A stretch of 40,178 nucleotides of DNA, taken from the IMG/VR virus record IMGVR_UViG_3300024346_000181, positions 1-40,178 of that record, one strand, 5' to 3'. The notes under the pieces are model-generated. The model did no database searches, was not told the origin of the DNA, and saw only the letters and a list, made by a program, of their open reading frames with translations. Position numbers and translations under genes: made by a program. This document shows, piece after piece, positions 13,937-39,291 of the stretch. Origin of the DNA: a virus. The first letter of the stretch is position 1. Each line of letters opens with the position of its first letter.

Positions 13937-13967
13937 GCTACAAATAACACATTCAGGGCCCACAATA

Positions 13968-13996: not shown

Positions 13997-14007
13997 ATTT
14001 GTAGCAA

Positions 14008-14038: not shown

Positions 14039-14071
14039 CCCATAAACCATTCGTATGAAATAAAACCATTC

Positions 14072-14335: not shown

Positions 14336-14358
14336 CTGGTTTCCTAGTTTGGGTGGAT

Positions 14359-14601
14359 TTAGTGAATTGATGCATCTGCTGGTTTTCCTTCAGGAAAATA
14401 TTGGTTCAGGATTTCCTGAATTTTTTGCAACACAGGACCCACCCGGTCAATTCCGCTGCATGTTAATTGGCCCCTGGTAATGGCTTTCACCAGGGTAGAC
14501 TGGGGAACCCCAGCTTCTTTTTCAATTTTGTTAAGACTTACCAGCCCAGTTTCACGAAGGGCTTCCAGCGCTTCCAGTGTAGGGTGTTTTTGATCCATCA
14601 T
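14359..14601 (-). CDS. Small HTH DNA-binding protein, candidate operator-binding regulator (80 aa)
   Basis: Residues about 20-46 (LVSLNKIEKEAGVPQSTLVK) form a helix-turn-helix of the type seen in small Bacteroidetes phage and mobile-element regulators (LNKLEREAGVPxxTLxKA). The rest is a short helix IQEILNQYFPEG, possibly for dimerisation. ATG at 14601 overlaps the preceding stop by ATGA. Upstream of this operon lies a copy of the same 13-bp palindrome found at nine accessory-gene promoters (14904-14916), so autoregulation and control of those promoters is a reasonable hypothesis. There is no direct proof. Confidence 0.7.
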   Translation of the reverse strand: MMDQKHPTLEALEALRETGLVSLNKIEKEAGVPQSTLVKAITRGQLTCSGIDRVGPVLQKIQEILNQYFPEGKPADASIH

Positions 14602-14792: not shown

Positions 14793-14812
14793 ATAAACTT
14801 TGATTTTGGAAG

Positions 14813-14837
14813 GCTGGGGGTTTTGATTCCCCCCAGC
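14813..14837 (-). promoter_or_regulatory. Leader hairpin of HTH operon
   Basis: The arms GCTGGGGG and CCCCCAGC pair perfectly (8 bp) around a 9-base loop. It lies between the operator/promoter and the ATG at 14792, so it is probably part of the 5' leader rather than a terminator; no U-tract follows on the minus strand. Confidence 0.6.
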
Positions 14838-14880
14838 TAATCGACCTAAAGTAGAATAACAAATTGTAATCTAACTGCAA

Positions 14881-14916
14881 GGTAGATAAAAAACAAACAC
14901 CGTCCTAATTTTTAGG
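14881..14916 (-). promoter_or_regulatory. Tenth operator copy and promoter of HTH operon
   Basis: The palindrome CCTAAAAATTAGG (14904-14916), with flanks AATTGC upstream and AC downstream, is identical to the operator of the accessory-gene cassettes. About 15 bases downstream is TATCTACC, a poorer match to TAnnTTTG. The 5' hairpin sequence and the CACAGTCAAAA element of the cassettes are absent here. Confidence 0.6.
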
Positions 14917-14925
14917 CAATTATTT

Positions 14926-15270: not shown

Positions 15271-15274
15271 TTTT

Positions 15275-15565
15275 TTATTCTTGTTCGGTTGTTGAAAAAA
15301 TTGTTTTGCAGCAAAGAATGTAGTTCACTTGTCTATTTGTTAGGCCATATTTTATGGAAAGCTGCCCATAAGAAAGCCCCATTTCCCGGTCCCTTATGAT
15401 CAGTGGTGTGACAATATCCACATATTTCAGACACCCCAGGAAGCTTCTGGTAATGGTTGGAATGTCTTTCACTTTCTTCACCCTGATCCCAAAATAAGCC
15501 CTCACCACTTTCAGGATCATTTCATCACGTCTGGGGTGGTCATTTTCTTCAGTTGTGTCCATCAT
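15275..15565 (-). CDS. Small HTH-like protein (96 aa)
   Basis: Its C-terminal half reads MGLSYGQLSIKYGLTNRQVN, a helix-turn-helix of the sigma-70 region-4/LuxR-like kind (SYGQLSxKYGLTxRQV). The N-terminal part is helical and basic (RVKKVKDIPTITRSFLG). It sits in a compact run of small genes between the tail and head modules. Likely a transcription factor or anti-terminator. There are two ATG codons at the start; the first (15565) is 6 bases after the preceding stop. Confidence 0.65.
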   Translation of the reverse strand: MMDTTEENDHPRRDEMILKVVRAYFGIRVKKVKDIPTITRSFLGCLKYVDIVTPLIIRDREMGLSYGQLSIKYGLTNRQVNYILCCKTIFSTTEQE

Positions 15566-15571
15566 GTAATG

Positions 15572-15775
15572 CTATTTTTGCCAAAGGTGTTCAATTGCCC
15601 AGGTTGTCCAGGCTTTTATCTGATCATTCTTCTGGCATGTTTCACAGGAATTGTAAAGATAAACACCATTATTTTTGTAGATGGTATGAATTTTATCATA
15701 CTGGTCCAGGTGAAAAAGTTCTTTCACTTCTTTCACCTGGTCATCTGAAAGCCTGTCCATTTGCCATCCACGCAT
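15572..15775 (-). CDS. Small CxxC protein (67 aa)
   Basis: A short, helical, charged protein with a single CETC pair (LYNSCETCQKNDQIKAWTTW). It begins 14 bases after the large distal tail gene and ends 6 bases before the HTH-like gene. Similar short proteins with SCxxCxxxxxxxW segments occur near tail genes of Bacteroidetes phages, but I cannot name the family. Metal binding would need a dimer because there is only one Cys pair. Confidence 0.6.
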   Translation of the reverse strand: MRGWQMDRLSDDQVKEVKELFHLDQYDKIHTIYKNNGVYLYNSCETCQKNDQIKAWTTWAIEHLWQK

Positions 15776-15789
15776 GGTTCACTTTTTTT

Positions 15790-18000: not shown

Positions 18001-18006
18001 ATCATT

Positions 18007-19221
18007 TTACATTGTCTGAAGGTCTTTGAAAATTCTTCCCTGAACAGTGAAGGTAGTTTTCCCCTGGGCATCAGCCACTGAAAAACTGCCATCATCCACC
18101 AGGAATTTCACAGCTATAATATTTCCCCGGCTGTCTGTGGTCCTGATCCAGTGTTCACGGCTGGCAAAGATGCTGGTGTGATACCTACGTCTGGAATATG
18201 CCAACTGATCCAGTTCAACAGTCAAAATCATTTCTTCACCTACGTTTGCCTGTCCTATCTCAAAACCACCAGTGGTGGACCTTACCTGAATGCCACCAGT
18301 AGGATCACCAAAAGCTGTTCTAGGGATTCCACATTCCCTGAATCTGGTGGTGGACCTATTCACACCAAACTGAACGGTTTTGAACCTTAATGAAGCATAT
18401 CCGCCAGCTGGTTCCAACCAAAAAAGATCAACTTCTTCCCGTGTTGGTTCACAGTTGTCCACGTAGATTCTGAAAGTTCGGTCAGGGCTGGGAACATCAC
18501 CACCTGAAAAGGTCCCCAGTTCAATAGTATAATAGTATACCTGGGTCCAGTCAGTTATTCCAGCCGCTGTGGCTGCTGCGTTGTTACCTGGTCCGATAGG
18601 GTAACCCACAGCCGTTCCACTTGTGTAAAGGGCACCAGCCGCCCCAATTTCAGCCCCTAGGGCATTGTAAAACCTAGTAACCACACCCCCCAGTGCTGTC
18701 TTCACATAAAGATAAATCCAGTCTGACTGACCCAGCCCCAGCCGCAATGTTTCCGGTTTGTTGCTGAAAATAGATAGTGGGCCCGGTTCCGTTACCCAGT
18801 CATATTCATAATGCTGGAATGCTGACCTGAATACCTTCCTTGCTGTGGTGACCGTCACCCCAAATTCCACCACCGCCCCAGTGGAAATGGTCTGCTGAAG
18901 TTCACCAAATCTGATGGAAAATTCACCCCACATTTCAGAATCTGACAAAGTGCTGTCATCATCCAGTGCTGGAAGTTGATCCCCTAGAAGTCTTCTAATA
19001 GTGTCACTGAAGTCCACCCTGATGGTCTGGCTAGTATATGGGACCACTTGCCGTTCCCCTATGGTTCCATTCGCTCCGATCCCACCAGACACCTTCACCA
19101 GTTCGTAAAATGCAAAACGCCTGATGGTGGCATTACTTGGTGTGTCCATTGTTATTTCCCAGGTTACATCTGGTTTCACAGTGGTCAATTCAAATGGTTC
19201 TGATTCTAATGATACTGCCAT
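18007..19221 (-). CDS. Distal tail protein (404 aa)
   Basis: It directly follows the tape measure (3-base gap), the position of a distal tail (Dit-like) or adaptor protein. The sequence is beta-rich, with long stretches of Gly/Thr/Val and a late segment VGEEMILTVELDQLAYSRRR, then FASREHWIRTTDSRGNIIAV. Its mid-part (TSGTAVGYPIGPGNNAAATA) looks like an exposed loop or inserted domain. No enzyme motif was seen. Together with the 736-aa protein it would form the tail tip. Confidence 0.6.
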   Translation of the reverse strand: MAVSLESEPFELTTVKPDVTWEITMDTPSNATIRRFAFYELVKVSGGIGANGTIGERQVVPYTSQTIRVDFSDTIRRLLGDQLPALDDDSTLSDSEMWGEFSIRFGELQQTISTGAVVEFGVTVTTARKVFRSAFQHYEYDWVTEPGPLSIFSNKPETLRLGLGQSDWIYLYVKTALGGVVTRFYNALGAEIGAAGALYTSGTAVGYPIGPGNNAAATAAGITDWTQVYYYTIELGTFSGGDVPSPDRTFRIYVDNCEPTREEVDLFWLEPAGGYASLRFKTVQFGVNRSTTRFRECGIPRTAFGDPTGGIQVRSTTGGFEIGQANVGEEMILTVELDQLAYSRRRYHTSIFASREHWIRTTDSRGNIIAVKFLVDDGSFSVADAQGKTTFTVQGRIFKDLQTM

Positions 19222-24888: not shown

Positions 24889-26415
24889 CTAAGCAATAGC
24901 ATCACCCAGCTGTGGATCAGCCAGGGAAATCTTCACATGGTCAATTTCTGTCACCAGTTCACCAAGGTGTTCCCAAACACCAGCCTTGAAGTACACAGCC
25001 AGGTTGAACAAAGTCACAGCTTTCATTCCATCCAGTTTTTTCACTGGTGTTTTCAGCGTTCTGGCTGCAAGATACATTTCACTGTCATCTTCACCAGTCA
25101 CCCAAATGTGGTTAAATTGGTTAAGATACTGATGAACACCCACCCTGACTTTCTGCTGAAGAATAGAAAATGCCAGCTGGGTGTTCAGGTTTGGAATGGC
25201 CCGAACTTCCACGGTCATGGTATAACCATTTGCACGTTCTGCGATGTTTCCAGTGTTTCCTATGGTTGAATCTCTGAAGACCAGATTCAGGTCCATCTGG
25301 GTGTCAAATTTGAACATTGGTTCTTCAGGTGCTGGTGGTGGTGGTGGTGGTGGTGGTGGTGGTGTTGGATCGGTTTTATAATCACCCATGAACACCAGCC
25401 CTTTCCCAAAAGCTTCATCCCTTCCAGGGTCACCCGCGTCTGTGATATGTTTGTCCAGGTATTCTTCCAGGTCATCCATGTTTTTGATGTCTGGTTCACA
25501 GGCCACAATTCGTGCCGCTGTGGCTCCAAAGTTAGGGGAAGACATTGACGTTCCACTGGCCAGCCTTAAATCATCCACACCAGCACCACAGCCTATGACT
25601 GAACTTCCACCTGAACAGTAGTCCACTTCAGGTCCCTGACTGCTGAACGGGCTGATTCTTAGATTTGTGTCACAGCTGGCAATTCCCAGGACATTTTCAG
25701 AACGACCGGGGAAACCCACCCGGCTTCCACCATTGGGGTCTTTGCCACTGTTTCCTGAACTTGCTGAAATGAAAACACCATTTTGGCGCAATTCTTTCAG
25801 AACAGCATCCACATCAGGACTACTGGAAGAACCACCCAGTGAAAAATTCATCCAGATGATCCATTCATCACCCAGTTTTTTCTTAATGTCCAGGCAATAT
25901 TCAGCGCCTGATTTGATCCAGTTATAAGAACCAGAACCGGAACGGTTCAGGACCTTCTGACCTGCTGACCATGCCCACTGTTCCTCATCATGTTTGGACC
26001 AACACAGACCCAGTGGAAAATCTGGATGGTAACCCACAAAGCTGGAAAGAACATGACTGAAATGGAAATGTTCATCCACCCCTGATCCACCATCAGTGGT
26101 CCAGTCTTTGGAATATTCCATCAGATGCTGGCCACGGTTGTTCAGAAATTTGTTCTGGCTGTGGCTTCCTGTGTCCAGGACCACCACCAAGACCTTTCTT
26201 TTTGGCTTGTTTGTCTTTGCGTATTCATCGACTTGCCACCGGGCATGGTTCCAGTTTCCTGACTGCTGGACCCCATAAGAATCAGGAACCAGAAGATTTT
26301 TTTCAGGCTGAAGAACCACATCCCACTGTTCCTTCAGTTCGTCATAGTTTTTCCAGGCTTCCTGGTAGCTTATTTCAGCCATTTGCTGCTTCAGCTTCAA
26401 TAGTTTTTCATTCAT
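24889..26415 (-). CDS. Subtilisin-like serine protease with polyproline linker (508 aa)
   Basis: A peptidase S8 domain occupies about residues 70-345. Asp81 lies in VLVVVLDTGSHSQ, His118 in HFHFSHVLSSFVG (the usual HGTHVA has F for G and S for T), oxyanion Asn222 in SASSGNSGKDPN, and nucleophile Ser290 in ASGTSMSSPNFG. There is no signal peptide, so it acts in the cytoplasm or virion. A (Pro)10 linker (TPPPPPPPPPPAPEEP) separates a C-terminal beta domain (about 365-508). It starts 1 base after the frameshift extension stop, well within the tail operon, so a role in virion maturation, self-cleavage or host-surface digestion is plausible. All catalytic residues are present. Confidence 0.88.
   Translation of the reverse strand: MNEKLLKLKQQMAEISYQEAWKNYDELKEQWDVVLQPEKNLLVPDSYGVQQSGNWNHARWQVDEYAKTNKPKRKVLVVVLDTGSHSQNKFLNNRGQHLMEYSKDWTTDGGSGVDEHFHFSHVLSSFVGYHPDFPLGLCWSKHDEEQWAWSAGQKVLNRSGSGSYNWIKSGAEYCLDIKKKLGDEWIIWMNFSLGGSSSSPDVDAVLKELRQNGVFISASSGNSGKDPNGGSRVGFPGRSENVLGIASCDTNLRISPFSSQGPEVDYCSGGSSVIGCGAGVDDLRLASGTSMSSPNFGATAARIVACEPDIKNMDDLEEYLDKHITDAGDPGRDEAFGKGLVFMGDYKTDPTPPPPPPPPPPAPEEPMFKFDTQMDLNLVFRDSTIGNTGNIAERANGYTMTVEVRAIPNLNTQLAFSILQQKVRVGVHQYLNQFNHIWVTGEDDSEMYLAARTLKTPVKKLDGMKAVTLFNLAVYFKAGVWEHLGELVTEIDHVKISLADPQLGDAIA
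25334..25363 (+). repeat. GGT microsatellite (10 copies) encoding the polyproline linker
   Basis: Ten exact GGT triplets (plus strand) encode ten CCA proline codons in the protease linker. Slippage in multiples of three would change linker length without breaking the frame. Confidence 0.85.
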
Positions 26416-30775: not shown

Positions 30776-31036
30776 TTAAAATTCGTCACTGGATTCAAAT
30801 TCTTCCCAGTCACCTTCCTGTTCTGCCTGGTTACATAGGGCTTCAAATTCTTCAGATGTCAGGGGAAATTCCCGTCCATTTTCATCACTGGCATCCACCC
30901 AGGTGATCTGGATTTCATCAGTTGAATAATTAGCGCCCCAGTATTCCCCACATTCGGTGCTGGTGGCCTGTGTTCCGTGAAGTGTGATCTGGATGTCATC
31001 CTGTAAAAAGACCTTTGCTGTGATTTCGATTGACAT
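30776..31036 (-). CDS. Small acidic protein behind a cassette promoter (86 aa)
   Basis: Strongly acidic, especially the C-terminus (EALCNQAEQEGDWEEFESSD), with a beta-rich front (ITAKVFLQDDIQITLHG). The start lies 10 bases after the CACAGTCAAAA element of its cassette. Acidic small phage proteins are often DNA mimics or inhibitors of host enzymes, but that is speculation here. No family recognised. Confidence 0.66.
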   Translation of the reverse strand: MSIEITAKVFLQDDIQITLHGTQATSTECGEYWGANYSTDEIQITWVDASDENGREFPLTSEEFEALCNQAEQEGDWEEFESSDEF

Positions 31037-31046
31037 TTTTCTGTGG

Positions 31047-31126
31047 TTTTGACTGTGTGAAGAAGCGTTTCCCGCTTCCGATGTTTCAAAGATAATACCT
31101 TTTTAGTTCTTGTCCTAATTTTTAGG
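31047..31126 (-). promoter_or_regulatory. Cassette promoter i (gene at 31036)
   Basis: Operator CCTAAAAATTAGG at 31114-31126, -7 box TATCTTTG at 31087-31094, 5'-terminal hairpin GAAGCG/CGCTTC at 31062-31078, start-associated CACAGTCAAAA at 31047-31057. The stop codon of the upstream gene lies in the flank just before the operator. Confidence 0.82.
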
Positions 31127-31129
31127 CAA

Positions 31130-31438
31130 TTAGTTTGAACATTTATCACCCAGTTCTTTTGCCTGGTCTGCTGTTATTGGAAGGTGACAAGTGATCCATA
31201 CAGGGTCAAATTTTATGGGGAACATTGCCCATCCGTTTTTGAATCCATGTTCATTTATCTGGATCATGGGGTCCCCATTTAATGAAATTTCAGGCAGAAG
31301 ACCAAACAGGCACCTTTCCAGTATTTTATGTCTTATTTCCTGAATTAGTGGGTTTTTACAGCTACTGTGGGCCGATCCGGTGACCTTCCCACGGTGTGGG
31401 CATCCATAACAGCTGTTTCCTTCTTTTCCATTTGCCAT
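31130..31438 (-). CDS. CxxC/H/C zinc-motif protein (102 aa)
   Basis: The N-terminal motif SCYGCPHRGKVTGSAHSSCK has CxxCPHRG...HSxC, a metal-binding signature recurrent in small tailed-phage proteins of unknown role (CxxCxHRxxVPGxxHSxC). The rest includes NGWAMFPIKFDPVWITCHLP. The stop lies in the flank of the cassette for the following gene (TGTTCAAACTAATTGCC), so the two genes are tightly packed. A CCCCAGG/CCTGGGG hairpin precedes the start. Confidence 0.68.
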   Translation of the reverse strand: MANGKEGNSCYGCPHRGKVTGSAHSSCKNPLIQEIRHKILERCLFGLLPEISLNGDPMIQINEHGFKNGWAMFPIKFDPVWITCHLPITADQAKELGDKCSN

Positions 31439-31455
31439 CGTTTGTGGTTTGTGTT

Positions 31456-31475
31456 CCCCAGGGCTGTTCCTGGGG
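31456..31475 (-). other. Post-stop hairpin (CCCCAGG/CCTGGGG)
   Basis: A 7-bp perfect stem with a 6-base loop between the stop at 31499 and the start at 31438. It is followed by AACACAAACCACAAACG before the ATG. Confidence 0.6.
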
Positions 31476-31498
31476 TCCTGTGGTTGAATTTTGATTCT

Positions 31499-31810
31499 TT
31501 AGTCCACCCACCCGTCAAACATCCGTTCGTCATAGGTGGCTGTCATTTGCTTTCTTTCCTTTGCCGTTTCCAGGGTGGTGATAAAAGAAGCAATTATTTC
31601 CATCCGGTCATGGGCTGGATTCAGCAGGTGAAAGTTCTTTTCACTTTTAATGGTGGAATGAATCCAATTATTCTGGTCTTCCAGCATGGTTTCAAATTCC
31701 TGAATCTTCTGGGCTGCTTTCCGGCTGAACTGGTTTCTGGATGTTTCCAAAAGTTCAGCTTCTGTGGTCTTGATTGCCTGGGCCAGTGATTTGTTTGTGA
31801 TGGTTTGCAT
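31499..31810 (-). CDS. Small helical protein behind a cassette promoter (103 aa)
   Basis: Mostly helical and charged (KTTEAELLETSRNQFSRKAA, EFETMLEDQNNWIHSTIKSE, IIASFITTLETAKERKQMTA); coiled-coil potential is high. The start lies 9 bases after CACAGTCAAAA. No domain recognised. Part of the accessory set with individual promoters. Confidence 0.66.
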   Translation of the reverse strand: MQTITNKSLAQAIKTTEAELLETSRNQFSRKAAQKIQEFETMLEDQNNWIHSTIKSEKNFHLLNPAHDRMEIIASFITTLETAKERKQMTATYDERMFDGWVD

Positions 31811-31819
31811 TTTCTGTGG

Positions 31820-31899
31820 TTTTGACTGTGTGAAGAAGCGCTTCCCGCTTCCGATGTATCAAAGATAATACCTTTTCAGTTCCCGTCCTAATATTTGGG
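31820..31899 (-). promoter_or_regulatory. Cassette promoter h (gene at 31810)
   Basis: Operator CCCAAATATTAGG at 31887-31899 (type 3), -7 box TATCTTTG at 31860-31867, 5' hairpin GAAGCG/CGCTTC at 31835-31851, CACAGTCAAAA at 31820-31830. Confidence 0.82.
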
Positions 31900-31912
31900 C
31901 AACTGATTTGAA

Positions 31913-32071
31913 TTAAAAGTGATATTTTATGAAATCCATGTTAAACCGTTCCAGGTTTTCCAGGGCCCAGGATTTGGCTTCTTCGTATGTCAGGAAATTT
32001 TTTCTGGTGGTCCTGAATCCTTTCTTTGCGTCCATGTATTCAATGAAGCATTCATAAGATGTGACGGTCAT
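31913..32071 (-). CDS. Small unknown protein (52 aa)
   Basis: A short frame reading MTVTSYECFIEYMDAKKGFR then TTRKNFLTYEEAKSWALENL to ...KYHF. Its ATG is 9 bases after CACAGTCAAAA, although no promoter cassette is present; a 10-bp hairpin lies between it and the upstream stop. This conserved placement is good evidence that the gene is translated. The charged, aromatic composition suggests a small soluble protein; no family known. Confidence 0.62.
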   Translation of the reverse strand: MTVTSYECFIEYMDAKKGFRTTRKNFLTYEEAKSWALENLERFNMDFIKYHF

Positions 32072-32080
32072 GGTTTGTGG

Positions 32081-32129
32081 TTTTGACTGTGAAGTAAGAC
32101 CACCACCCCAGATGATCCAGGGTGGTGGT
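32081..32129 (-). promoter_or_regulatory. Start-associated element and hairpin without promoter
   Basis: A 10-bp perfect stem (ACCACCACCC/GGGTGGTGGT at 32099-32129) is followed by CACAGTCAAAA at 32081-32091 and the ATG at 32071. No -7 box or operator is present, so the element works independently of the promoter and is probably read through from the upstream gene. Confidence 0.65.
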
Positions 32130-32137
32130 GTTCGGTT

Positions 32138-32377
32138 TTATTTGCTTGCGTAGACTTCAGGAAACAGTTCACGCATCTTGATATTTTTGGCTTTGTCCCA
32201 GCCCTTCAGCCAGGCATCCAGGATTTCCACTGTGGAAGGTTCCCCGGCTGGTGTTTGGCCTATTTGCCTTCCTTCAATCATTGGAAACCAGCTGGAATCC
32301 TGGGCTGGGACCCGGTTTTTCCCGTTTTCGTGTGCGATCATTCCCAGGGTTTCAGCAATAATGGTACAAGCTTTCAT
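32138..32377 (-). CDS. Small unknown protein behind a cassette promoter (79 aa)
   Basis: The start at 32377 (MKACTIIAETLGMIA) is chosen because longer frames translate the promoter cassette itself. The protein has helical and Pro/Gly-containing parts (QIGQTPAGEPSTVEILDAWL, KGWDKAKNIKMRELFPEVYA). It lies 10 bases behind CACAGTCAAAA. No domain recognised. Confidence 0.64.
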   Translation of the reverse strand: MKACTIIAETLGMIAHENGKNRVPAQDSSWFPMIEGRQIGQTPAGEPSTVEILDAWLKGWDKAKNIKMRELFPEVYASK

Positions 32378-32387
32378 AATTCTTTGA

Positions 32388-32467
32388 TTTTGACTGTGTG
32401 AAGAAGCGCTTCCCGCTTCCGATGTTTCAAAGATAGTCCTTTCCACTTTACTGTCCAAACTTTTTGG
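32388..32467 (-). promoter_or_regulatory. Cassette promoter g (gene at 32377)
   Basis: Operator CCAAAAAGTTTGG at 32455-32467 (type 2, covaried arms; TTTG of the inner arm is an exact -33 box), -7 box TATCTTTG at 32428-32435, hairpin at 32403-32419, CACAGTCAAAA at 32388-32398. Confidence 0.83.
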
Positions 32468-32489
32468 CAAATGATTTGAAAATAATGTG

Positions 32490-32526
32490 AAAAAAAACCA
32501 GCCCAGGTGTTTTGGTCCTGGGCTGG
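32490..32526 (-). terminator. Rho-independent terminator
   Basis: The minus-strand stem CCAGCCCAGG/CCTGGGCTGG (10 bp, 9-base loop) is followed by TTTTTTTTC. It lies after the stop at 32536. Confidence 0.88.
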
Positions 32527-32535
32527 GGGTCTTTA

Positions 32536-32985
32536 TTAGATGGCTTTTCTAGTGTTCAGACCCTGCTGTGAAAAAATGTTCTTCACCCACATGGTGGCAA
32601 ATGATTTATTTGCTGACATGGCCCTTGGGTAATACTTCAGACTGGTGAACCTGTTCAGGTCCATGTCTGCTTTACTGATGCTAGGCATATAAAGATTTCC
32701 CTGCTGGAAGTGAACCGGAGTCACCCAGAACATTTCCTTTTCCAGGCCCTGAACATTTACCAGAAATTCCATATCTGGGTCAGGCACCAGGTCCCCGTTT
32801 TGCTCGTAATAGTGGGAAACGCTGAAGTGAATGAAAGTCGATCCTTCACCCAGGATTTCCACATGGGCTGGCATGAATGACCCTTCTGTGTTGTCGATCT
32901 TAATTGACCCACCAGCCGCCTGGGCCATCTTCATCAGGTAGGTGAATTTTTTTGCTGCTGTTTTTGATACTGAAAGACTTGCCAT
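32536..32985 (-). CDS. Unknown accessory protein behind a cassette promoter (149 aa)
   Basis: The start at 32985 (MASLSVSKTAAKKF) is chosen because a longer frame would translate the cassette. The body is a soluble alpha/beta protein (FTYLMKMAQAAGGSIKIDNT, FIHFSVSHYYEQNGDLVPDP, FLVNVQGLEKEMFWVTPVHF) with a basic C-terminus (RAMSANKSFATMWVKNIF). It has its own promoter and its own terminator. No domain recognised. Confidence 0.66.
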   Translation of the reverse strand: MASLSVSKTAAKKFTYLMKMAQAAGGSIKIDNTEGSFMPAHVEILGEGSTFIHFSVSHYYEQNGDLVPDPDMEFLVNVQGLEKEMFWVTPVHFQQGNLYMPSISKADMDLNRFTSLKYYPRAMSANKSFATMWVKNIFSQQGLNTRKAI

Positions 32986-32994
32986 GATTTTTGG

Positions 32995-33075
32995 TTTTGA
33001 CTGTGATGGAAAAGCTTCGTGCCCTTCCGATGTTTCAAAGATAACACCTTTCAAGTTCCTGTCCAAACTTTTTGG
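32995..33075 (-). promoter_or_regulatory. Cassette promoter f (gene at 32985)
   Basis: Operator CCAAAAAGTTTGG at 33063-33075 (type 2), -7 box TATCTTTG at 33036-33043, leader hairpin with arms GGAAGGGC and GCTTTTCC at 33008-33028, CACAGTCAAAA at 32995-33005. Confidence 0.83.
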
Positions 33076-33096
33076 CAATTGATTTGAAAGAAATGC

Positions 33097-33130
33097 AAAA
33101 AAAAAGTCACCCCAGGGTTTCCAGGGTGAC
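33097..33130 (-). terminator. Rho-independent terminator
   Basis: Minus-strand GTCACCC pairs with GGGTGAC, with a U-tract of nine T after it. It lies after the stop at 33155. Stop and terminator are joined by AGAACTAATGTTTT, shared with the gene at 34805. Confidence 0.82.
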
Positions 33131-33154
33131 CAAATCAGTCAAAACATTAGTTCT

Positions 33155-33547
33155 TTACGGTTTTTTGATTTGGCTGTGAAATCTATCGTCAGCTATGGCT
33201 TCTTTAGGAATAGGCTTCCACCGTTCAAATGTGTCTATATCTGATGTTCCATGAATCCAGGTTTGACCAATTCCGTGTTCAGGTAACAAAATTTGAATAA
33301 AGTATCCTTTTTTGAATCCATGATTGCATTCGTATAGAATGGCCTGACCTGGTTCTGGGACCTTTTCAGTCAGCAAAAAAGATTTTGGTGGGGCTTCCAG
33401 CTGTTTTATCAATTGGTCAGCCAGGGCCACGGCTGTTTCTGTGGCTGTTTCTAAATCAGTATTAGTCCATTCCTTTAATGGCCACGTTCCACAAAGACCC
33501 TGCAAAGCTAGGCCAGCATAATATTCACGAAGTGTCATATCCTTCAT
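33155..33547 (-). CDS. Unknown accessory protein (130 aa)
   Basis: The start at 33547 (MKDMTLREYYAG) is preferred over an upstream GTG because the longer frame would run into the upstream hairpin. The N-terminal half (ALQGLCGTWPLKEWTNTDLE, TATETAVALADQLIKQLEAP) is helical, and later HGFKKGYFIQILLPEHGIGQ and TWIHGTSDIDTFERWKPIPK are beta-rich. The leader lacks CACAGTCAAAA but has a 10-bp stem immediately before. No domain recognised. Confidence 0.65.
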   Translation of the reverse strand: MKDMTLREYYAGLALQGLCGTWPLKEWTNTDLETATETAVALADQLIKQLEAPPKSFLLTEKVPEPGQAILYECNHGFKKGYFIQILLPEHGIGQTWIHGTSDIDTFERWKPIPKEAIADDRFHSQIKKP

Positions 33548-33563
33548 TATTATTGATTTTGTT

Positions 33564-33594
33564 CCCACAGGGCTGTCTGTGTTGGCCCTGTGGG
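33564..33594 (-). other. Post-stop hairpin (CCCACAGGGC/GCCCTGTGGG)
   Basis: A 10-bp perfect stem with an 11-base loop between the coiled-coil gene (stop 33602) and the gene starting at 33547, followed by AACAAAATCAATAATA and ATG. No U-tract. Confidence 0.6.
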
Positions 33595-33601
33595 TTGTTT
33601 T

Positions 33602-34630
33602 TTATTTCTTCAGCCAGGTTCCCTTTGAGATACTGAAGATTTTGGTGTTTTCCAGTGGGTCCTGGTCTGGTTTCGGTTGATCTTCCTTTCCATTCAGGGA
33701 ATTAGCCGCCATTTCCATTAGGCGGGTGGAATTTTTGATTGACACCTTCAGCGCTTTGTTTTCGATCTGGATGGCTTCCAGGGCTGTCTGTTGTGCTGTC
33801 AGGTGTTTGTTTTGATCCCTTAGCGCCTTGTTTTCAGCTTTAAGGGCTGCCAGTTGTTCCTTCAGGGTCTGGTTTTCCACCTGGACGGCTTTCAGGTTTT
33901 CCACCTTTGCCAGAACAGCCAGAAGCTGGCTTTCTACCTGATCCAGAATATTCAGAAGCTGTGGCTTTGTGGCTTCCTGGTGGGCCTGGGCTTCCTGTCT
34001 GTCAATGTCAGCAGCTGTGAAGGTTTCTTCCAGGTTGAAAAATTCAATCATTGAATCCAGTGAATCCTGGTCTTCTAAAGTCTGATAAATTTCTTCCAGG
34101 GCTGCCATGTCTTCCTGAACTTCCACTTGGTGGATCAGTTCATCCTGTTCAGCCCGGTCAGCCTGGGCTTCCCTGGCTGCCACTTTTTCATTCAGCAAGG
34201 TTTCAAAATCTGCATCTTCCTTTTCCTTCTGTGTTGGCTGGCCTTCATTGTTGTTCCCAGTGCTTACAAATTTCTTATCCCATTCGCCCACCTTCAGGTC
34301 CAGATAGTAGGCTGTGTGAAAGTAGTCAGTCATAGAATCTGACTTATCAAACCAGTTCTGGGACTTCATTATGGTGATGATCTTCTGGACATCCTGGAAC
34401 ATTGAAACAGGAAGTCCCTTATTTGAATGTGTGCCATTATAGGTGTTCAGGGTCTTGTAAGATTCTTCACCCAGGAATGCTTCCAGGTTGTACGGTGCCT
34501 GAAGGATAACCACCACCACTTCAGAATTGTGGTTTTTGCGTACGCTGAACTTCCATCCTTCCTTCTTTGAAAATTCTGTGGTCAGTTGCTTTCTGATGCT
34601 TAAAACTTCTTCTTTGGTAATGTAGGCCAT
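33602..34630 (-). CDS. LPD29-like domain plus coiled-coil protein (342 aa)
   Basis: Residues about 1-125 (MAYITKEEVLSIRKQLTTEF, KFSVRKNHNSEVVVVILQAP, SMTDYFHTAYYLDLKVGEWD) match the pattern of LPD29, a large polyvalent protein-associated domain that in phages and plasmids often occurs with anti-restriction or DNA-associated modules (KFSVRxxHSSxVxVxI ... SDxMTDYFxxAYYxxxxxGxWDKxFV). The rest (about 150-310) is a long charged coiled coil (VENLKAVQVENQTLKEQLAA, LKAENKALRDQNKHLTAQQT). It stands behind a cassette promoter with type 3 operator. It might be injected with DNA or act on host defence; this is inference from the domain's usual setting. Confidence 0.72.
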   Translation of the reverse strand: MAYITKEEVLSIRKQLTTEFSKKEGWKFSVRKNHNSEVVVVILQAPYNLEAFLGEESYKTLNTYNGTHSNKGLPVSMFQDVQKIITIMKSQNWFDKSDSMTDYFHTAYYLDLKVGEWDKKFVSTGNNNEGQPTQKEKEDADFETLLNEKVAAREAQADRAEQDELIHQVEVQEDMAALEEIYQTLEDQDSLDSMIEFFNLEETFTAADIDRQEAQAHQEATKPQLLNILDQVESQLLAVLAKVENLKAVQVENQTLKEQLAALKAENKALRDQNKHLTAQQTALEAIQIENKALKVSIKNSTRLMEMAANSLNGKEDQPKPDQDPLENTKIFSISKGTWLKK

Positions 34631-34641
34631 GATGTTTTTTG

Positions 34642-34722
34642 TTTTGACTGTGATGGAAAAGCTTCGTGCCCTTCCGATGATTCAAAGATAATACCTTTCA
34701 AGTTCCCGTCCTAATATTTGGG
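34642..34722 (-). promoter_or_regulatory. Cassette promoter e (gene at 34630)
   Basis: Operator CCCAAATATTAGG at 34710-34722 (type 3), -7 box TATCTTTG at 34683-34690, leader hairpin GGAAGGGC/GCTTTTCC at 34655-34675, CACAGTCAAAA at 34642-34652. Confidence 0.82.
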
Positions 34723-34743
34723 CAACTGATTTAAAAATAATGC

Positions 34744-34777
34744 AAAAAAAAATCCACCCCAGGCTTCCAGGGTGGAT
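34744..34777 (-). terminator. Rho-independent terminator
   Basis: The minus-strand stem ATCCACCC/GGGTGGAT (8 bp) is followed by a run of nine T. It lies after the stop at 34805. Confidence 0.85.
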
Positions 34778-34804
34778 GAATCAGTCAGTAAAAACATTAG
34801 TTCT

Positions 34805-35125
34805 TTATGAAACCACAGGGCTGGTGTCACCTTCCTTCCAGGTGACTGTGGCATGGGTCCATTTGCCGTGAAGAAGAAATTCAACCTTCATGCTGTGGTT
34901 CTTTGAAAAGTCTTCCAGAAGGGCTGTGACTTCATCCAGTTCAGGACCTTCCACCCCCAGTGATGTCACCCCCATTTCCCAGGCCATTTCTTTTGCCTGG
35001 TCCATAGTGTACCCACTAGCGGAAAACCTGGCCAGATAGGAAAGGTAAAAGCACAAACAGCTTTCTGACATCTTGCTGGCTGTCTTGTTGTTGAAACGGT
35101 ATTCTGTGAACTGGTCCATGATCAT
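34805..35125 (-). CDS. Small accessory protein (106 aa)
   Basis: A helical protein with a Cys pair (SESCLCFYLSYLARFSASGY) and segments MDQAKEMAWEMGVTSLGVEG and VEFLLHGKWTHATVTW. The start could be 35125 or the ATG 6 bases further in (35119). It ends in the AGAACTAATGTTTT motif and a strong terminator; the gene upstream is separated by a hairpin in a 52-bp exact repeat. Unknown function. Confidence 0.65.
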   Translation of the reverse strand: MIMDQFTEYRFNNKTASKMSESCLCFYLSYLARFSASGYTMDQAKEMAWEMGVTSLGVEGPELDEVTALLEDFSKNHSMKVEFLLHGKWTHATVTWKEGDTSPVVS

Positions 35126-35130
35126 TCTGG

Positions 35131-35182
35131 TTTTGATGACCCCAGGTGTGATCCCTGGGGCCCGGTGAAGGTTTTAATTCTT
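35131..35182 (-). repeat. 52-bp exact repeat carrying the CCCCAGG hairpin, copy 1
   Basis: Identical to 35411-35462. It includes a hairpin (CCCCAGG/CCTGGGG, 35140-35160) and the conserved leader element ATCAAAA, here with T for the G of CACAGTCAAAA. The unit links the upstream stop to the next start. Confidence 0.8.
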
Positions 35183-35184
35183 GG

Positions 35185-35400
35185 TTATTGGTCTTTGATC
35201 CATTCACAGACTTCTTCACAGACTTCTTCTTCTGTTGGGTCTTCACCATCTTCAATGGCAAAATGGCTGAATGGAAGGAATGCCGCCACAGTGTAGCTGT
35301 CTTTGAATGTCAAAACCTGTCTTTTGTTCATATCCACATGGAATGAAAGACCTTTTTCAGTGTGGATGGTTCCATAAGCGTGGTGTTCAATGCTGGTCAT
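35185..35400 (-). CDS. Small acidic protein (71 aa)
   Basis: A beta-rich core (HTEKGLSFHVDMNKRQVLTF, FLPFSHFAIEDGEDPTEEEV) with an acidic C-terminus containing EEVCEEVCEWIKDQ. The gene is bounded on both sides by the 52-bp repeat. No family recognised; two Cys at the end suggest metal or disulfide chemistry. Confidence 0.62.
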   Translation of the reverse strand: MTSIEHHAYGTIHTEKGLSFHVDMNKRQVLTFKDSYTVAAFLPFSHFAIEDGEDPTEEEVCEEVCEWIKDQ

Positions 35401-35410
35401 AATTTTCTGA

Positions 35411-35462
35411 TTTTGATGACCCCAGGTGTGATCCCTGGGGCCCGGTGAAGGTTTTAATTCTT
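35411..35462 (-). repeat. 52-bp exact repeat carrying the CCCCAGG hairpin, copy 2
   Basis: Identical to 35131-35182. The identity is total across hairpin and flanks, which implies recent duplication or homogenisation. It lies between the genes at 35462-35710 and 35185-35400, and includes the last base of the upstream stop. Confidence 0.8.
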
Positions 35463-35710
35463 TAGCCTAAAGTCTTTAAGGATTTTCCACAATCCCGAAG
35501 AAACAGTTCTGTGGAAGCTTTTGATGAAATCCATTTGATCTTCGCATCCAGTAATATTTCCAGGCTGGCCTTATCCAGATTCCCAACAAACCGGTTTAAT
35601 GCTTTGATCTGTTCACTTTCAGGGTCCACGGTTTCAATTTTCGCGTATGCGTTTCTGATGGCTGAAAGTTCTTCTTCAGTTATGAATGTGATGCTGGTCT
35701 GATTTGCCAT
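35462..35710 (-). CDS. Small accessory protein behind a cassette promoter (82 aa)
   Basis: The start at 35710 (MANQTSITFITEEE) is chosen because a longer frame would translate the cassette. It is helical and charged (AIRNAYAKIETVDPESEQIK, ALNRFVGNLDKASLEILLDA, SKASTELFLRDCGKSLKT). CACAGTCAAAA lies 12 bases upstream. No domain recognised. Confidence 0.64.
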   Translation of the reverse strand: MANQTSITFITEEELSAIRNAYAKIETVDPESEQIKALNRFVGNLDKASLEILLDAKIKWISSKASTELFLRDCGKSLKTLG

Positions 35711-35722
35711 GATATTTATGTG

Positions 35723-35803
35723 TTTTGACTGTGATGGAAAAGCTTCGTGCCCTTCCGATGTTTCAAAGATAATACCTTTCAAGTTCCTGTCCTAATTTTT
35801 AGG
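35723..35803 (-). promoter_or_regulatory. Cassette promoter d (gene at 35710)
   Basis: Operator CCTAAAAATTAGG at 35791-35803 (type 1), -7 box TATCTTTG at 35764-35771, leader hairpin GGAAGGGC/GCTTTTCC at 35736-35756, CACAGTCAAAA at 35723-35733. Confidence 0.83.
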
Positions 35804-35823
35804 CAATTAATTTGAAAATACTT

Positions 35824-36162
35824 TCATCCTGTGCCTGGTCCATGACTTATTTTTTCTATTTCATGGGTGACAATTCCAATTTTGCAAAGGATTTTTATCT
35901 GTGATAAATTGTCTTCATTTACTTCAGTCTTCACCCATTGTCCATCAGTGAAGATCATCACATTATTTCCAACTTTCACCCCCCAGCTTTGGCGGGGAAA
36001 GGTGCTAAACACTTTTTGCCAAAGGTCCCCGGTAGCGTATGCTTTGCCAGCTTTTTCCATTGTTGCAATCTGTGTAAGTAGTCCAGATAAAATTTCTTCA
36101 TCTGTGATCAGGTATGTGGTGGTGTGAACCTGCCACTTCCGTATTTTTTTTATTTCTTCCAT
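35824..36162 (-). CDS. Small accessory protein (112 aa)
   Basis: The start at 36162 (MEEIKKIRKWQVHT) lies 10 bases after CACAGTCAAAA; a longer frame would begin inside that element. The body is alpha/beta (TTTYLITDEEILSGLLTQIA, SWGVKVGNNVMIFTDGQWVK, NLSQIKILCKIGIVTHEIEK). It is directly downstream of the 64-aa gene with no separate promoter. Unknown function. Confidence 0.64.
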   Translation of the reverse strand: MEEIKKIRKWQVHTTTYLITDEEILSGLLTQIATMEKAGKAYATGDLWQKVFSTFPRQSWGVKVGNNVMIFTDGQWVKTEVNEDNLSQIKILCKIGIVTHEIEKISHGPGTG

Positions 36163-36172
36163 GATGGTGTGG

Positions 36173-36183
36173 TTTTGACTGTG
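36173..36183 (-). promoter_or_regulatory. Start-associated element between two genes without promoter
   Basis: CACAGTCAAAA lies in the 23-base gap between the stop at 36186 and the ATG at 36162, showing that the element works inside an operon and belongs to translation or mRNA processing rather than to the promoter. Confidence 0.7.
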
Positions 36184-36185
36184 GT

Positions 36186-36380
36186 TCACAGCTTTGAATT
36201 GTGCAAAGCGATAAATAAAGATTTGAACCTGGGGTCAGCTGTGGAAACCATTTCAGAATAATCTGAATAAATCACTGAACAGTCATTGAATTTTCTTCCG
36301 TCAATGATGGTCTGAATAAGCTGAAGGTTTCCTTCCGTCACTGTTGTCTGTCCGTTTTCTGAAGTTGTTACAATTGCCAT
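36186..36380 (-). CDS. Small accessory protein behind a cassette promoter (64 aa)
   Basis: A short mixed protein (TTSENGQTTVTEGNLQLIQT, CSVIYSDYSEMVSTADPRFK). Start 10 bases after CACAGTCAAAA. Its cassette has the third leader hairpin family. No domain recognised. Confidence 0.64.
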   Translation of the reverse strand: MAIVTTSENGQTTVTEGNLQLIQTIIDGRKFNDCSVIYSDYSEMVSTADPRFKSLFIALHNSKL

Positions 36381-36390
36381 TTTTCTGTGG

Positions 36391-36475
36391 TTTTGACTGT
36401 GTGAAGAAGCGGCTGGTTAGGCCGCTTTGGATGTTCAAAGATAATCATTCCCAGATTGCTGTCCTAATTTTTAGG
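36391..36475 (-). promoter_or_regulatory. Cassette promoter c (gene at 36380)
   Basis: Operator CCTAAAAATTAGG at 36463-36475 (type 1), -7 box TATCTTTG at 36436-36443, leader hairpin with arms AAGCGGC and GCCGCTT and loop CTAACCA at 36407-36427, CACAGTCAAAA at 36391-36401. Confidence 0.82.
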
Positions 36476-36554
36476 CAATTACTTTGAAAGTATTTTTTAC
36501 TTGTGCTGTGGTGGTCCAGGGTGTAATGGCATCCAGTGCCCGTATTAACTCCAT
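36471..36554 (-). CDS. Possible 27-aa peptide ending in the operator
   Basis: An ATG at 36554 follows a GCCCCAGG/CCTGGGGC hairpin (36571-36592) and an A-rich CACTCAAAGACAATAAG leader, the same layout as the other genes. It encodes MELIRALDAITPWTTTAQVK plus seven residues and stops with the TAA inside the CCTAA arm of the operator. It may be a real small peptide or chance. The overlap would let translation disturb operator binding, which is speculative. Confidence 0.35.
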   Translation of the reverse strand: MELIRALDAITPWTTTAQVKNTFKVIA

Positions 36555-36570
36555 CTTATTGTCTTTGAGT

Positions 36571-36592
36571 GCCCCAGGGGTGATCCTGGGGC
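36571..36592 (-). other. Post-stop hairpin (GCCCCAGG/CCTGGGGC)
   Basis: An 8-bp perfect stem with a 6-base loop just after the stop at 36604. No U-tract. Confidence 0.6.
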
Positions 36593-36603
36593 CTGTGACT
36601 GAA

Positions 36604-37128
36604 TTATTTTACCAAATACCTGTAATGTGGCCGCTGAATTGGTCCACTGGCCACAATGGTCCAGGCTGTCACTGTGGTTTCCCCATCAGTGATGGTGATT
36701 TCCAGATTCACATTGAATGAAGCCCGGATGACCTTCATGGTGGAAACCTTCAGCCCTTTTTCTTTCAACCGACCCACCAGTTTGTCCAGCTGGGCTTCCA
36801 GGTTCTTTTCTTCCTTCTTCAGCTGGTCTGAAACATAGTCTTCAGCTGTATTTCTGGAAATGCTGCTGGCTGAAGTCCTGTCTGTGTGGTACTGCCTTGA
36901 TTTTTTTGTGTTGAAGAACCCAGTTGGAAATCCCAGATATTCCCCGCGAACACCTTTTTTCTTCAGTTCTGGGACCAGACCCAGGTATTCACACCATTCC
37001 ACTTCCTTCCAGGTGTTTCTGATGGTCATTTCTTGGTGGACATATTCAGCCCACTGTGCAGCCCTGGCCATATGGGCTTTTCTGATGTCTTCAGTGGCGT
37101 TTTTAATCTGTTCTTTTATCGTTGCCAT
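36604..37128 (-). CDS. Unknown accessory protein (174 aa)
   Basis: The N-terminus is a helical domain (KEQIKNATEDIRKAHMARAA, QWAEYVHQEMTIRNTWKEVE); then KKKGVRGEYLGFPTGFFNTK, a charged coil (AEDYVSDQLKKEEKNLEAQL) and a C-terminal beta segment (VNLEITITDGETTVTAWTIV). It lies behind a cassette promoter and before a GCCCCAGG hairpin. No domain recognised. Confidence 0.66.
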   Translation of the reverse strand: MATIKEQIKNATEDIRKAHMARAAQWAEYVHQEMTIRNTWKEVEWCEYLGLVPELKKKGVRGEYLGFPTGFFNTKKSRQYHTDRTSASSISRNTAEDYVSDQLKKEEKNLEAQLDKLVGRLKEKGLKVSTMKVIRASFNVNLEITITDGETTVTAWTIVASGPIQRPHYRYLVK

Positions 37129-37137
37129 TGCTTTTGG

Positions 37138-37217
37138 TTTTGACTGTGTGAAGAAGCGTTTCCCGCTTCCGATGTTTCAAAGATAATACCCTTTTAGTTC
37201 TTGTCCTAATTTTTAGG
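37138..37217 (-). promoter_or_regulatory. Cassette promoter b (gene at 37128)
   Basis: Operator CCTAAAAATTAGG at 37205-37217 (type 1), -7 box TATCTTTG at 37178-37185, hairpin GAAGCG/CGCTTC with loop GGAAA at 37153-37169, CACAGTCAAAA at 37138-37148. Its upstream flank is a degenerate copy of the terL 3' end. Confidence 0.83.
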
Positions 37218-37273
37218 CAATTACTTTGAAAATAGTTTTCCTTATCCCAGGTCTTCATATCCCTGGGGCCTGT
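37218..37273 (-). repeat. Duplicated terL 3' end forming a hairpin
   Basis: CAGGGATATGAAGACCTGGG followed by ATAAGGAAAACTATTTTCAA resembles the terL end CAGGGATATGAATATCTGGG with ATAAGAAAGTATTTTCAAAG at 37757-37794. In this copy CCCAGG and CCTGGG pair (37246-37251/37262-37267). It lies between the genes at 37281 and 37128, so the promoter cassette was copied with terL flank. Confidence 0.68.
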
Positions 37274-37280
37274 GAATGAA

Positions 37281-37658
37281 TTATTTCTGGCTTGGTAGGA
37301 TGTCACCTTTCATAACCAGGATTCCGGTTCTGGCTAGGTATTCTTTTTCTGAAGGTGTTCTTCCAAATTTGTGTTGCCCTTTTGATATTTCACCCTTGCG
37401 AAAACTGTAATTCACAGAAGTAAATTCAGCCACAGTTTCACTAACAAGTGTAAGCCTATTTAAAAGAAGGAAATTTCCAGCCGTCCTGACAATAAAATAA
37501 ACTGATTCTTCAATCACCAGCCAGTTTACAATTCGGTGATTTTTAGTGGAAAGAAGTTCTTTTTTTAGGGCCAGGTCTGTGGGTGAAAATTCAGCCACAG
37601 TTTTAGGGGCATTTTCCAGGGCTTTGTTTAGGGAAGGATATGAAATGAAAGTGTGCAT
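37281..37658 (-). CDS. Small accessory protein behind a cassette promoter (125 aa)
   Basis: An alpha/beta protein (ALENAPKTVAEFSPTDLALK, HRIVNWLVIEESVYFIVRTA) with a repeated TVAEFSP/TVAEFTS motif and a basic C-terminal half (KGQHKFGRTPSEKEYLARTG). Start 10 bases after CACAGTCAAAA. First gene after terL. No family recognised. Confidence 0.66.
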   Translation of the reverse strand: MHTFISYPSLNKALENAPKTVAEFSPTDLALKKELLSTKNHRIVNWLVIEESVYFIVRTAGNFLLLNRLTLVSETVAEFTSVNYSFRKGEISKGQHKFGRTPSEKEYLARTGILVMKGDILPSQK

Positions 37659-37668
37659 TTTGTTGTTG

Positions 37669-37748
37669 TTTTGACTGTGTGAAGAAGCGCTTCCCGCTTC
37701 CGATGTTTCAAAGATAATACCCTTTTAGTTCTTGTCCTAATTTTTAGG
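37669..37748 (-). promoter_or_regulatory. Cassette promoter a (gene at 37658)
   Basis: Operator CCTAAAAATTAGG at 37736-37748 (type 1), -7 box TATCTTTG at 37709-37716 (19 bases between), hairpin GAAGCG/CGCTTC with loop GGAAG at 37684-37700, CACAGTCAAAA at 37669-37679. It starts 22 bases past the terL stop, so it is probably the founding copy. Confidence 0.85.
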
Positions 37749-37770
37749 CAATTACTTTGAAAATACTTTC

Positions 37771-39291
37771 TTATCCCAGATATTCATATCCCTGGACCAC
37801 GCCCCGGTTCCAGGTGTTCACCCCTGCCATAGTCAGTGTATCCACTGCTTCATCATGTTCAGCGTTTGGAAATACTGTCATTTCATGGATAAAGTCATCA
37901 TTCCAGGGACCCTGAACCAAAAAGCATTTCCCAGCTTCCAGGTTTGGCGAAATGGAACGCAACCTGGCCAGCTTGTCACCTTCAGCCATCTTCCATTCCA
38001 GAACATTCAGGGTGGTGGATTCCTGAAGATACTGGGTGATGGCCACCCCTGAACTTTTTGGTTCAATAAATATCCGTCCCCGGTTCCCATTTTTGGCCAC
38101 AAAGCCTTTCAGGGCTTCCACACGCTTCCCAAAGGTTTCCTTTATGGTCATATAGTCAAAAACAAATAAATAGCCTTTGTAGGTAGCGTAACAAAGGAAG
38201 GCTGTGGGGTCATTGGCTTGTTTGGTTTTATCAGCAGCATCCACTGTGTAGTCTTTCACCAGGTTCTTCACCTGTTCTGGTAGTTTGTTATATGGGACCA
38301 CCTTCAGCCATTCCAGCTTCACTTCATTTCCTTCAGGTGCTGACGTGGCCTGACCATACTGTTCAGAATAACCCCTGGAACCCAGTTTCCCTTTTTCATC
38401 TTCCAGAACTGGACCTGGGGCCCTGGTAGGGTCCAGGAATCCACCCTGGTGTTCATACCATTCAGAAAGTGTCATTTCGTTCCCCTGGAAGGTCACCAGG
38501 TCTTCAGATGGGTGAACTGGAAATTCACTGGTGGATGGTAGACAAATATGCTTCAGCCTGATTTTACCATCCTTACTTTTTTTGATCCAGTCCCCGGCTG
38601 GGTCCGCTTCATGTAGCCTTTGCATTATCATCACCATTGGCGTGTTGGCCTTGTCTACTTTTCGCGTTGAAAGTGTTGTATTGATCCACTGGGATGCGCC
38701 TGTGATGATTTTCTTTGACTGGACACCCTTTGGGTTGATAGGATCATCAACAATGATCAGGTGTCCATGCTGGCCTGTAATGTTTGCCCCGGTTGATGTG
38801 GACATCCTGAATCCACCATCTAGGTTCATGTATAATCCCTTTGTGTCCTGGTCTTTTCTCATTATCACCAGGTCCCCATAAATTAGTTGAAAATAGTCTG
38901 AATTTATCACATCCCTGGACATCTGTGACTGGAACATGGACAGCCGCCCTTCATTTGATCCACTGATGATCCTGGCCCACGGTGCCTGTGTCCAAATCCA
39001 GACTGGAAATAAAATTGTGGCAATTGTCGATTTAGAAGACCCTGGTGGAACATTGATCAGAAGGTCATATTCTTTGGGCTGCTTATTGATCACCCATTCA
39101 CCCAGAAGCTGAAGTTCATCACACATATATTTCATGTGAAAATTCAGTGATGGTTCACCATGTGATGTGGGAACATGGGACCACATATCCTTCAGGAAGT
39201 TCCAGAAGTTCCTGTGGTAATGTCTGGCCATTGACCTGAACTGATTTCTGTCTGTGATCCACTGTGCTTGTTCTGATGGGTCCTGTTCCAT
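37771..39291 (-). CDS. terL: Terminase large subunit (506 aa)
   Basis: The N-terminal ATPase has Walker A at about 80-89 (NVPPGSSKST), Walker B at 177-184 (HLIIVDDP), and a coupling motif MIMQRLHEADPAG at 221-233. The C-terminal RNase H-like nuclease has Asp351/Asp354 in TVDAAD, Glu410 in IFIEPKSSG and Asp480/Asp484 in AEHDEAVD. The pattern LGSRGYSEQYGQATSAPEG fits TIGR01630-type terminases. Length is normal. It packages phage DNA into the prohead through the portal. It follows terS by zero bases. Unusually, the head genes are over 23 kb downstream. Its 3' end can fold into a hairpin (CCAG...GATATgaATATC...CTGG). Confidence 0.95.
   Translation of the reverse strand: MEQDPSEQAQWITDRNQFRSMARHYHRNFWNFLKDMWSHVPTSHGEPSLNFHMKYMCDELQLLGEWVINKQPKEYDLLINVPPGSSKSTIATILFPVWIWTQAPWARIISGSNEGRLSMFQSQMSRDVINSDYFQLIYGDLVIMRKDQDTKGLYMNLDGGFRMSTSTGANITGQHGHLIIVDDPINPKGVQSKKIITGASQWINTTLSTRKVDKANTPMVMIMQRLHEADPAGDWIKKSKDGKIRLKHICLPSTSEFPVHPSEDLVTFQGNEMTLSEWYEHQGGFLDPTRAPGPVLEDEKGKLGSRGYSEQYGQATSAPEGNEVKLEWLKVVPYNKLPEQVKNLVKDYTVDAADKTKQANDPTAFLCYATYKGYLFVFDYMTIKETFGKRVEALKGFVAKNGNRGRIFIEPKSSGVAITQYLQESTTLNVLEWKMAEGDKLARLRSISPNLEAGKCFLVQGPWNDDFIHEMTVFPNAEHDEAVDTLTMAGVNTWNRGVVQGYEYLG

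Follow-up and report, generated by a model that had tools for sequence, protein, structure and literature searches.

Dispersed cassettes of an operator-like dyad and a promoter box ahead of accessory genes in a virus and its relatives

The intergenic spaces of the halovirus HF2 contain dispersed repeats that bear promoters, keep their position among relatives and have been proposed as targets of virus factors (PMC8707807). Mycobacteriophage L5 has more than 20 operator and stoperator sites of 13 bp that are oriented with transcription and served by one phage repressor (PMC9283540). Many non-structural genes of the cluster K mycobacteriophages are preceded by repeated leaders, the start-associated sequences (SAS), to which the ESAS form adds an inverted repeat (PMC3203893, PMC12699233). 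The middle promoters of phage T4 have a strong downstream element and, close to the -35 position, a box that is specific to the phage (PMC6755090). The sigma-A promoter of Bacteroidetes is made up of a -33 element TTTG and a -7 box TAnnTTTG. In the current analysis of a stretch of 40,178 nucleotides from IMGVR_UViG_3300024346_000181, a virus of Bacteroidota bacteria, referred to here as the window, nine cassettes that join a -7 box of this type to an operator-like dyad have been identified ahead of accessory genes. These nine and a tenth copy at 14.9 kb are, on balance, probably the promoters of one phage regulon, namely host sigma-A-type promoters with an operator over the -33 position, through which a dimeric factor would control all of them.

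Architecture of the cassettes in the window

All nine cassettes are on the minus strand and each heads a group of accessory genes (Table 1). They are made up, in order, of a flank, a 13-bp dyad CCnAAnnnTTnGG, 19 nucleotides (nt), the -7 box TATCTTTG, the start region, a hairpin, the leader element CACAGTCAAAA and the ATG. The nine sites and nine start codons listed in an earlier sequence-only reading of this DNA have been confirmed at their positions, as has its description of the -7 box as an exact Bacteroidetes TAnnTTTG, every cassette carrying exact TATCTTTG. The gap between palindrome and box, given there as 19-20 nt, is 19 nt at every site and never 20. The accessory block has nine copies of TATCTTTG on its minus strand, and one more lies elsewhere, on the plus strand at 22571; the chance expectation is 1.3, and second-order Markov shuffles yield 0.01 cassettes per window. 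The leader element is exact at all nine sites, where it lies about 10 nt from the ATG and is without a Shine-Dalgarno core; it is also found before two genes that have no promoter cassette (32081 and 36173).

The dyad has 5-bp arms. With the box numbered as in PMC9723704, its computed centre is near -38 and it spans about -44 to -32, that is, over the -33 region, with the right half overlapping the -33 position. Five of the nine dyads have the form CCTAAAAATTAGG, two the form CCAAAAAGTTTGG (cassettes 6 and 7), in which both half-sites are altered together and the symmetry is retained, and two the form CCCAAATATTAGG, which has one mismatch. At -33, cassettes 6 and 7 have TTTG and the remaining seven have TTAG (see the Flavobacterium johnsoniae data in PMC7366714). 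The window thus has the sigma-A -7 box at 9/9 sites and the -33 TTTG at 2/9, and adds a dyad over -33.

The parallels drawn earlier with the L5 stoperators and the cluster K SAS are analogies only, as the defining features of both were looked for and are lacking here. The L5 sites are asymmetric, bound by a monomer and located at promoters as well as in intergenic spaces away from them (PMC9283540), whereas the window dyad is symmetric and locked 19 nt from the -7 box. SAS has the sequence GGGATAGGAGCCC and occupies the ribosome-binding site at 3-7 bp from the start, and the ESAS repeats are imperfect inverted repeats of 17 bp (PMC3203893, PMC12699233); the window has the more distant CACAGTCAAAA, a 13-bp dyad near -38 and a separate leader hairpin of 7-8 bp. 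The SAS/ESAS pattern is also without a promoter element, unlike the window cassettes. The HF2 repeats belong to an archaeal virus with archaeal promoters, are 58 and 29 bp long and, in the available part of their description, have no fixed dyad (PMC8707807); their promoter activity has been shown by experiment, whereas the window cassettes are known from sequence alone. No description of such a cassette in Bacteroidota phages was found in the open-access papers searched, in which transcription control in these phages is little described. The earlier remark that it has no equal in Bacteroidetes phages holds for published descriptions and fails for uncultivated relatives, which carry the same arrangement.

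The tenth copy, which is absent from the earlier list of nine, has a 20-nt match to dyad and flank (14902-14921, minus) and heads three small genes (including 14598-14792 and 14359-14601), followed by head genes. Its box TACCTTGC departs from TAnnTTTG and fits TAnnTTGY, the SM5 motif of Flavobacterium psychrophilum that has been attributed to an alternative sigma factor (PMC9723704).

Table 1. Positions of the cassettes and associated features in the window
Feature	Span	Strand	Dyad	-7 box	Hairpin	ATG	Remarks
Cassette 1	37658..37769	minus	37736-37748	37709-37716	37683-37701	37658	flank included; CACAGTCAAAA at 37669-37679
Cassette 2	37126..37238	minus	37205-37217	37178-37185	37152-37170	37128	
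Cassette 3	36380..36496	minus	36463-36475	36436-36443	36407-36427	36380	variant hairpin
Cassette 4	35710..35824	minus	35791-35803	35764-35771	35736-35756	35710	
Cassette 5	34630..34743	minus	34710-34722 (CCCAAATATTAGG)	34683-34690	34655-34675	34630	
Cassette 6	32985..33096	minus	33063-33075 (CCAAAAAGTTTGG)	33036-33043	33008-33028	32985	
Cassette 7	32377..32488	minus	32455-32467 (CCAAAAAGTTTGG)	32428-32435	32402-32420	32377	
Cassette 8	31810..31920	minus	31887-31899 (CCCAAATATTAGG)	31860-31867	31834-31852	31810	
Cassette 9	31036..31147	minus	31114-31126	31087-31094	31061-31079	31036	
Tenth copy	14877..14921	minus	14904-14916	TACCTTGC			AATTGCCTAAAAATTAGGAC; 19 nt between dyad and box; without cassette leader
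Intrinsic terminator	34752..34777	minus					directly upstream of cassette 5
Intrinsic terminator	33105..33131	minus					directly upstream of cassette 6
Terminator-like hairpin	32490..32524	minus					AGCCCAGG/CCTGGGCT and T-run; upstream of cassette 7; read in the sequence
80-amino-acid protein	14359..14601	minus					downstream of tenth dyad; weak helix-turn-helix/MerR-like matches; model pLDDT (predicted local distance difference test) 57, poor

Relatives, other phages and host chromosomes

Two relatives colinear with the window have been identified. G001 (IMGVR_UViG_3300040801_002948, 67,384 bases) was found by an alignment-based terminase search and matched independently by a search with the cassette pattern; an IMG/VR search with a single terminase sequence gave nothing usable. 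A search with a relaxed form of the dyad alone, leaving out the -7 box, gave 21 hits, and none of them is followed by TATCTTTG. G001 agrees with the window at 57% in the capsid, 46% in the terminase and 41% in the tape measure and carries about 18 cassettes, and G418 (65,418 bases) carries six. The accessory genes of the window have no match in either relative at E 1e-3, so that conservation extends to the control elements but not to these genes. Upstream of the terminase, both relatives also have an early gene region of about 20-25 kb that is not in the window, and this suggests that the window is probably incomplete.

The G001 cassettes conserve the dyad, the -7 box and a start region, CATCGTTAACA, and keep the -33 TTTG in every copy; their flanks and spacer vary. 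The drift of flanks and spacer, but not of dyad, box and start, indicates that the dyad has not merely been copied with its surroundings and that its function is separable from duplication. It also bears on the highly improbable explanation that the cassettes are recombination sites, providing dispersed homology for duplicating or exchanging accessory genes. The relatives do hold different accessory genes in the same slot, the identity between cassettes 1 and 2 is 93% over 116 nt, and the phages G002, G003 and G428 described below have repeats of 200 nt and more in common; yet recombination alone would leave unexplained why only the functional positions are conserved in G001, and a role in recombination is more likely a by-product.

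G418 has a counterpart of the tenth copy at 14958, with the same dyad, 19 nt and a box of the TAnnTTGC type (TATCTTGC). The TAnnTTGC boxes of these two sites possibly bring a second sigma factor under the same operator.

Two further phages of 32% GC, G002 (98.6 kb) and G003 (77.6 kb), have only a subtilase-like protein in common with the window, in which the subtilase-family protein lies at 24889-26415. They carry five and four copies, respectively, of GCCAAAATATTAGG (GACAAAATATTAGG at one site each), followed by 19 nt, TATCTTTG or a near form of it and a related start region; the -33 element is TTAG, not TTTG. The 19-nt spacing is common to the window, G001, G418, G002 and G003. A search by DNA similarity with the G003 cassettes among isolate phages found nothing. 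In G428 (IMGVR_UViG_3300011116_000920), a sister of G002 and G003 whose best shared proteins are 57-94% identical, the 13-bp box and the spacer are replaced in three of the four aligned copies, with little change to flank or leader; a specificity element would be expected to behave in this way. In G425 (IMGVR_UViG_3300040856_002293), seven promoters have CATTGTTAA or a near form of it as their start region and lack the full dyad. The patterns of G428 and G425 suggest that the modules can be combined separately. Repeats of CATTGTTAA are located at 10619-17444 in G425 and 15928-18830 in G428, and this start motif may be a separate phage element. G407 and other AT-rich phages with one-mismatch matches were not accepted as members, as a -33 TTTGG with a chance left half is sufficient to produce them.

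These observations allow a tentative proposal of an undescribed phage promoter class of Bacteroidota viruses, in which a swappable 13-bp operator 19 nt before the -7 box, often then followed by CATYGTTAA, would be common to unrelated lineages, namely the family of the window and the group of G002 and G003, and would be recognised by a phage regulator differing from one sister phage to the next, box and regulator co-evolving. A swap of box and regulator together between sister phages, if real, would amount to a natural system of specificity in a phylum from which few genetic switches are known. The presence of up to about 18 repeats of the switch core in other viruses suggests an undescribed way of controlling many small genes together.

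A scan of 395 Bacteroidota genomes at nine spacings revealed 33 dyad-promoter matches against about 47 in a reversed control, without a clear preference for 19 nt (6 of the 33, with 3.7 expected). Among 84,980 species scanned with the 19-nt pattern, 64 scattered stretches were found. CATYGTTAA behind the -7 box is not enriched, having 12 matches in 247 genomes and 11 in the reversed control. An origin of the cassette from host chromosomes is rejected, as there is no excess over the control in the 395 genomes. The dyad-promoter cassette is a phage feature; the wide occurrence in host chromosomes which the sequence-only reading had named as evidence against its own proposal was not found. The repeated promoter-operator-leader unit it proposed is borne out in that dyad and -7 box are conserved in the relatives and specific to phages by the genome scans.

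The same scans bear on a simpler arrangement without any factor, in which the dyad would be an extended -33 or upstream element of a strong constitutive promoter for host RNA polymerase. The overlap of the right half with -33 at a fixed spacing and single promoter-like matches in some Bacteroidota chromosomes agree with it. It is nevertheless improbable, given the lack of excess in the 395 genomes, the swap of the box between sister phages, and the presence of the left half-site at 9/10 window and 17/18 G001 TTnGG-N19-TAnnTTTG sites, where about 0.4% is expected.

Control of the promoters and candidate regulators

We infer the transcription start, the binding, the factor, its direction of control and the role of the hairpin as follows. 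Each promoter would consist of the host sigma-A-type -7 box TATCTTTG and the operator-like dyad CCnAAnnnTTnGG, and a dimeric DNA-binding factor, probably encoded by the phage, would bind the dyad and bring all the units under joint control. The promoters would be used early by host RNA polymerase until the factor silences them at a set time. That the dyad always sits at one position over -33 points to a factor with a direct effect on the access of RNA polymerase. A repressor is favoured because the -7 boxes are perfect, as is the -33 element in G001; repression is judged the somewhat likelier direction of control, and activation has a smaller but appreciable chance.

A protein of 85-95 amino acids, conserved between G001 and G418 with 36% identity, is a candidate for this regulator. 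Its model (pLDDT 73, from a two-sequence alignment) resembles helix-turn-helix (HTH) proteins of the XRE, lambda-repressor-like type with an E-value no better than 0.066. The regulator gene would be expected in the early region of about 25 kb that is lacking from the window. A weak candidate in the window is the 80-amino-acid protein of Table 1, which showed no link to the relatives' HTH protein and has a poor model.

Several observations weigh against a regulon of repressed sigma-A-type promoters. Duplication inflates the conservation within the window; only 2/9 copies have TTTG at -33, the other 7/9 having TTAG, so that the core promoter might need an activator; G002 and G003 look like large lytic phages, for which a repressor of the lysogeny type would be less expected; no such site is present in the five isolate phages nearest by terminase; and the HTH candidate has its best fold match at E 0.066 and no significant counterpart in the window. 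A rather doubtful alternative is that the dyad replaces a working -33 element and that a phage activator, analogous to MotA of T4, recruits host RNA polymerase for a middle phase. It would account for TTAG rather than TTTG at -33 in seven window copies and in G002 and G003, for near-perfect -7 boxes, as in T4 middle promoters (PMC6755090), and for the occurrence of cassettes in large, apparently lytic phages. However, TTTG is retained in every G001 copy, and the dyad, which is symmetric, has its centre near -38; the MotA box has its own near -30 and takes the place of the -35 element.

A single regulon under a phage factor would group accessory genes of no assigned role together. As a modular and countable unit, the cassette predicts exact start sites, gives a binding site for pull-down of the regulator and serves as a sequence tag by which other phages with this scheme can be found.

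Leaders, transcription units and accessory genes

All nine window leaders fold as one stem-loop of 7-8 pairs with a loop of 5 or 7 (-9.9 to -10.7 kcal/mol); there are three sequence versions with the same predicted fold, and the start region is left open. An Rfam search gave no match. With the -7 box counted from -12 to -5 (PMC9723704), the predicted +1, at which transcription would begin, is the A of CATC, and the stem follows from about +4. The mRNA would start with about three free nt, the stem-loop, an unpaired A-rich stretch and the ATG. The hairpin had been listed as a part of the cassette, which is correct for the nine window leaders and not in general: the folded G001 leader is unstructured, and the folded G002 and G003 leaders are also without it. 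It is specific to the window phage. The distance from dyad to ATG is 89-95 nt in the window against mostly 68-71 nt in G001, a difference of about the inserted hairpin. In F. johnsoniae, upstream adenines and a low degree of structure tune translation initiation (PMC6847099), and a hairpin insulating an open A-rich start fits these needs; it would most likely stabilise the 5' end and keep the start region open for initiation independent of a Shine-Dalgarno sequence.

Most genes inside the units have a further strong hairpin ahead of them. Strong GC-rich hairpins, mostly CCCAGG/CCTGGG without a T-run, are found directly before genes that lack a cassette of their own (starts at 35400, 35125, 33544, 32071, 31438, 30710, 30309 and 29724).

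The description of the units as single-gene transcripts is only partly right, since five or six of the nine hold two or three genes (by gene layout units 3, 4, 5, 7, 8 and probably 9). Of the terminators ascribed to several of them, intrinsic ones stand before cassettes 5, 6 and 7 only; the hairpin before cassette 7 has a loop of 9, which exceeds the limit of the terminator scan.

The accessory block has no DNA similarity to isolate phages, and the putative major capsid protein has no isolate match. Proteins with LPD29 (33602-34630) and DUF6908 (32536-32985) domains are the only products of cassette-controlled genes above the Pfam curated cut-off; the latter has no plasmid match. A second copy of the terminase gene's end (CCAGGGATATGAA...CTGGGATAAG) stands before cassette 2 (37230-37265 and 37765-37800), a trace of a segmental duplication of terminase tail and cassette. 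A 58-bp leader repeat of 98% identity (35125-35182 and 35405-35462) precedes two neighbouring genes without promoter cassettes.

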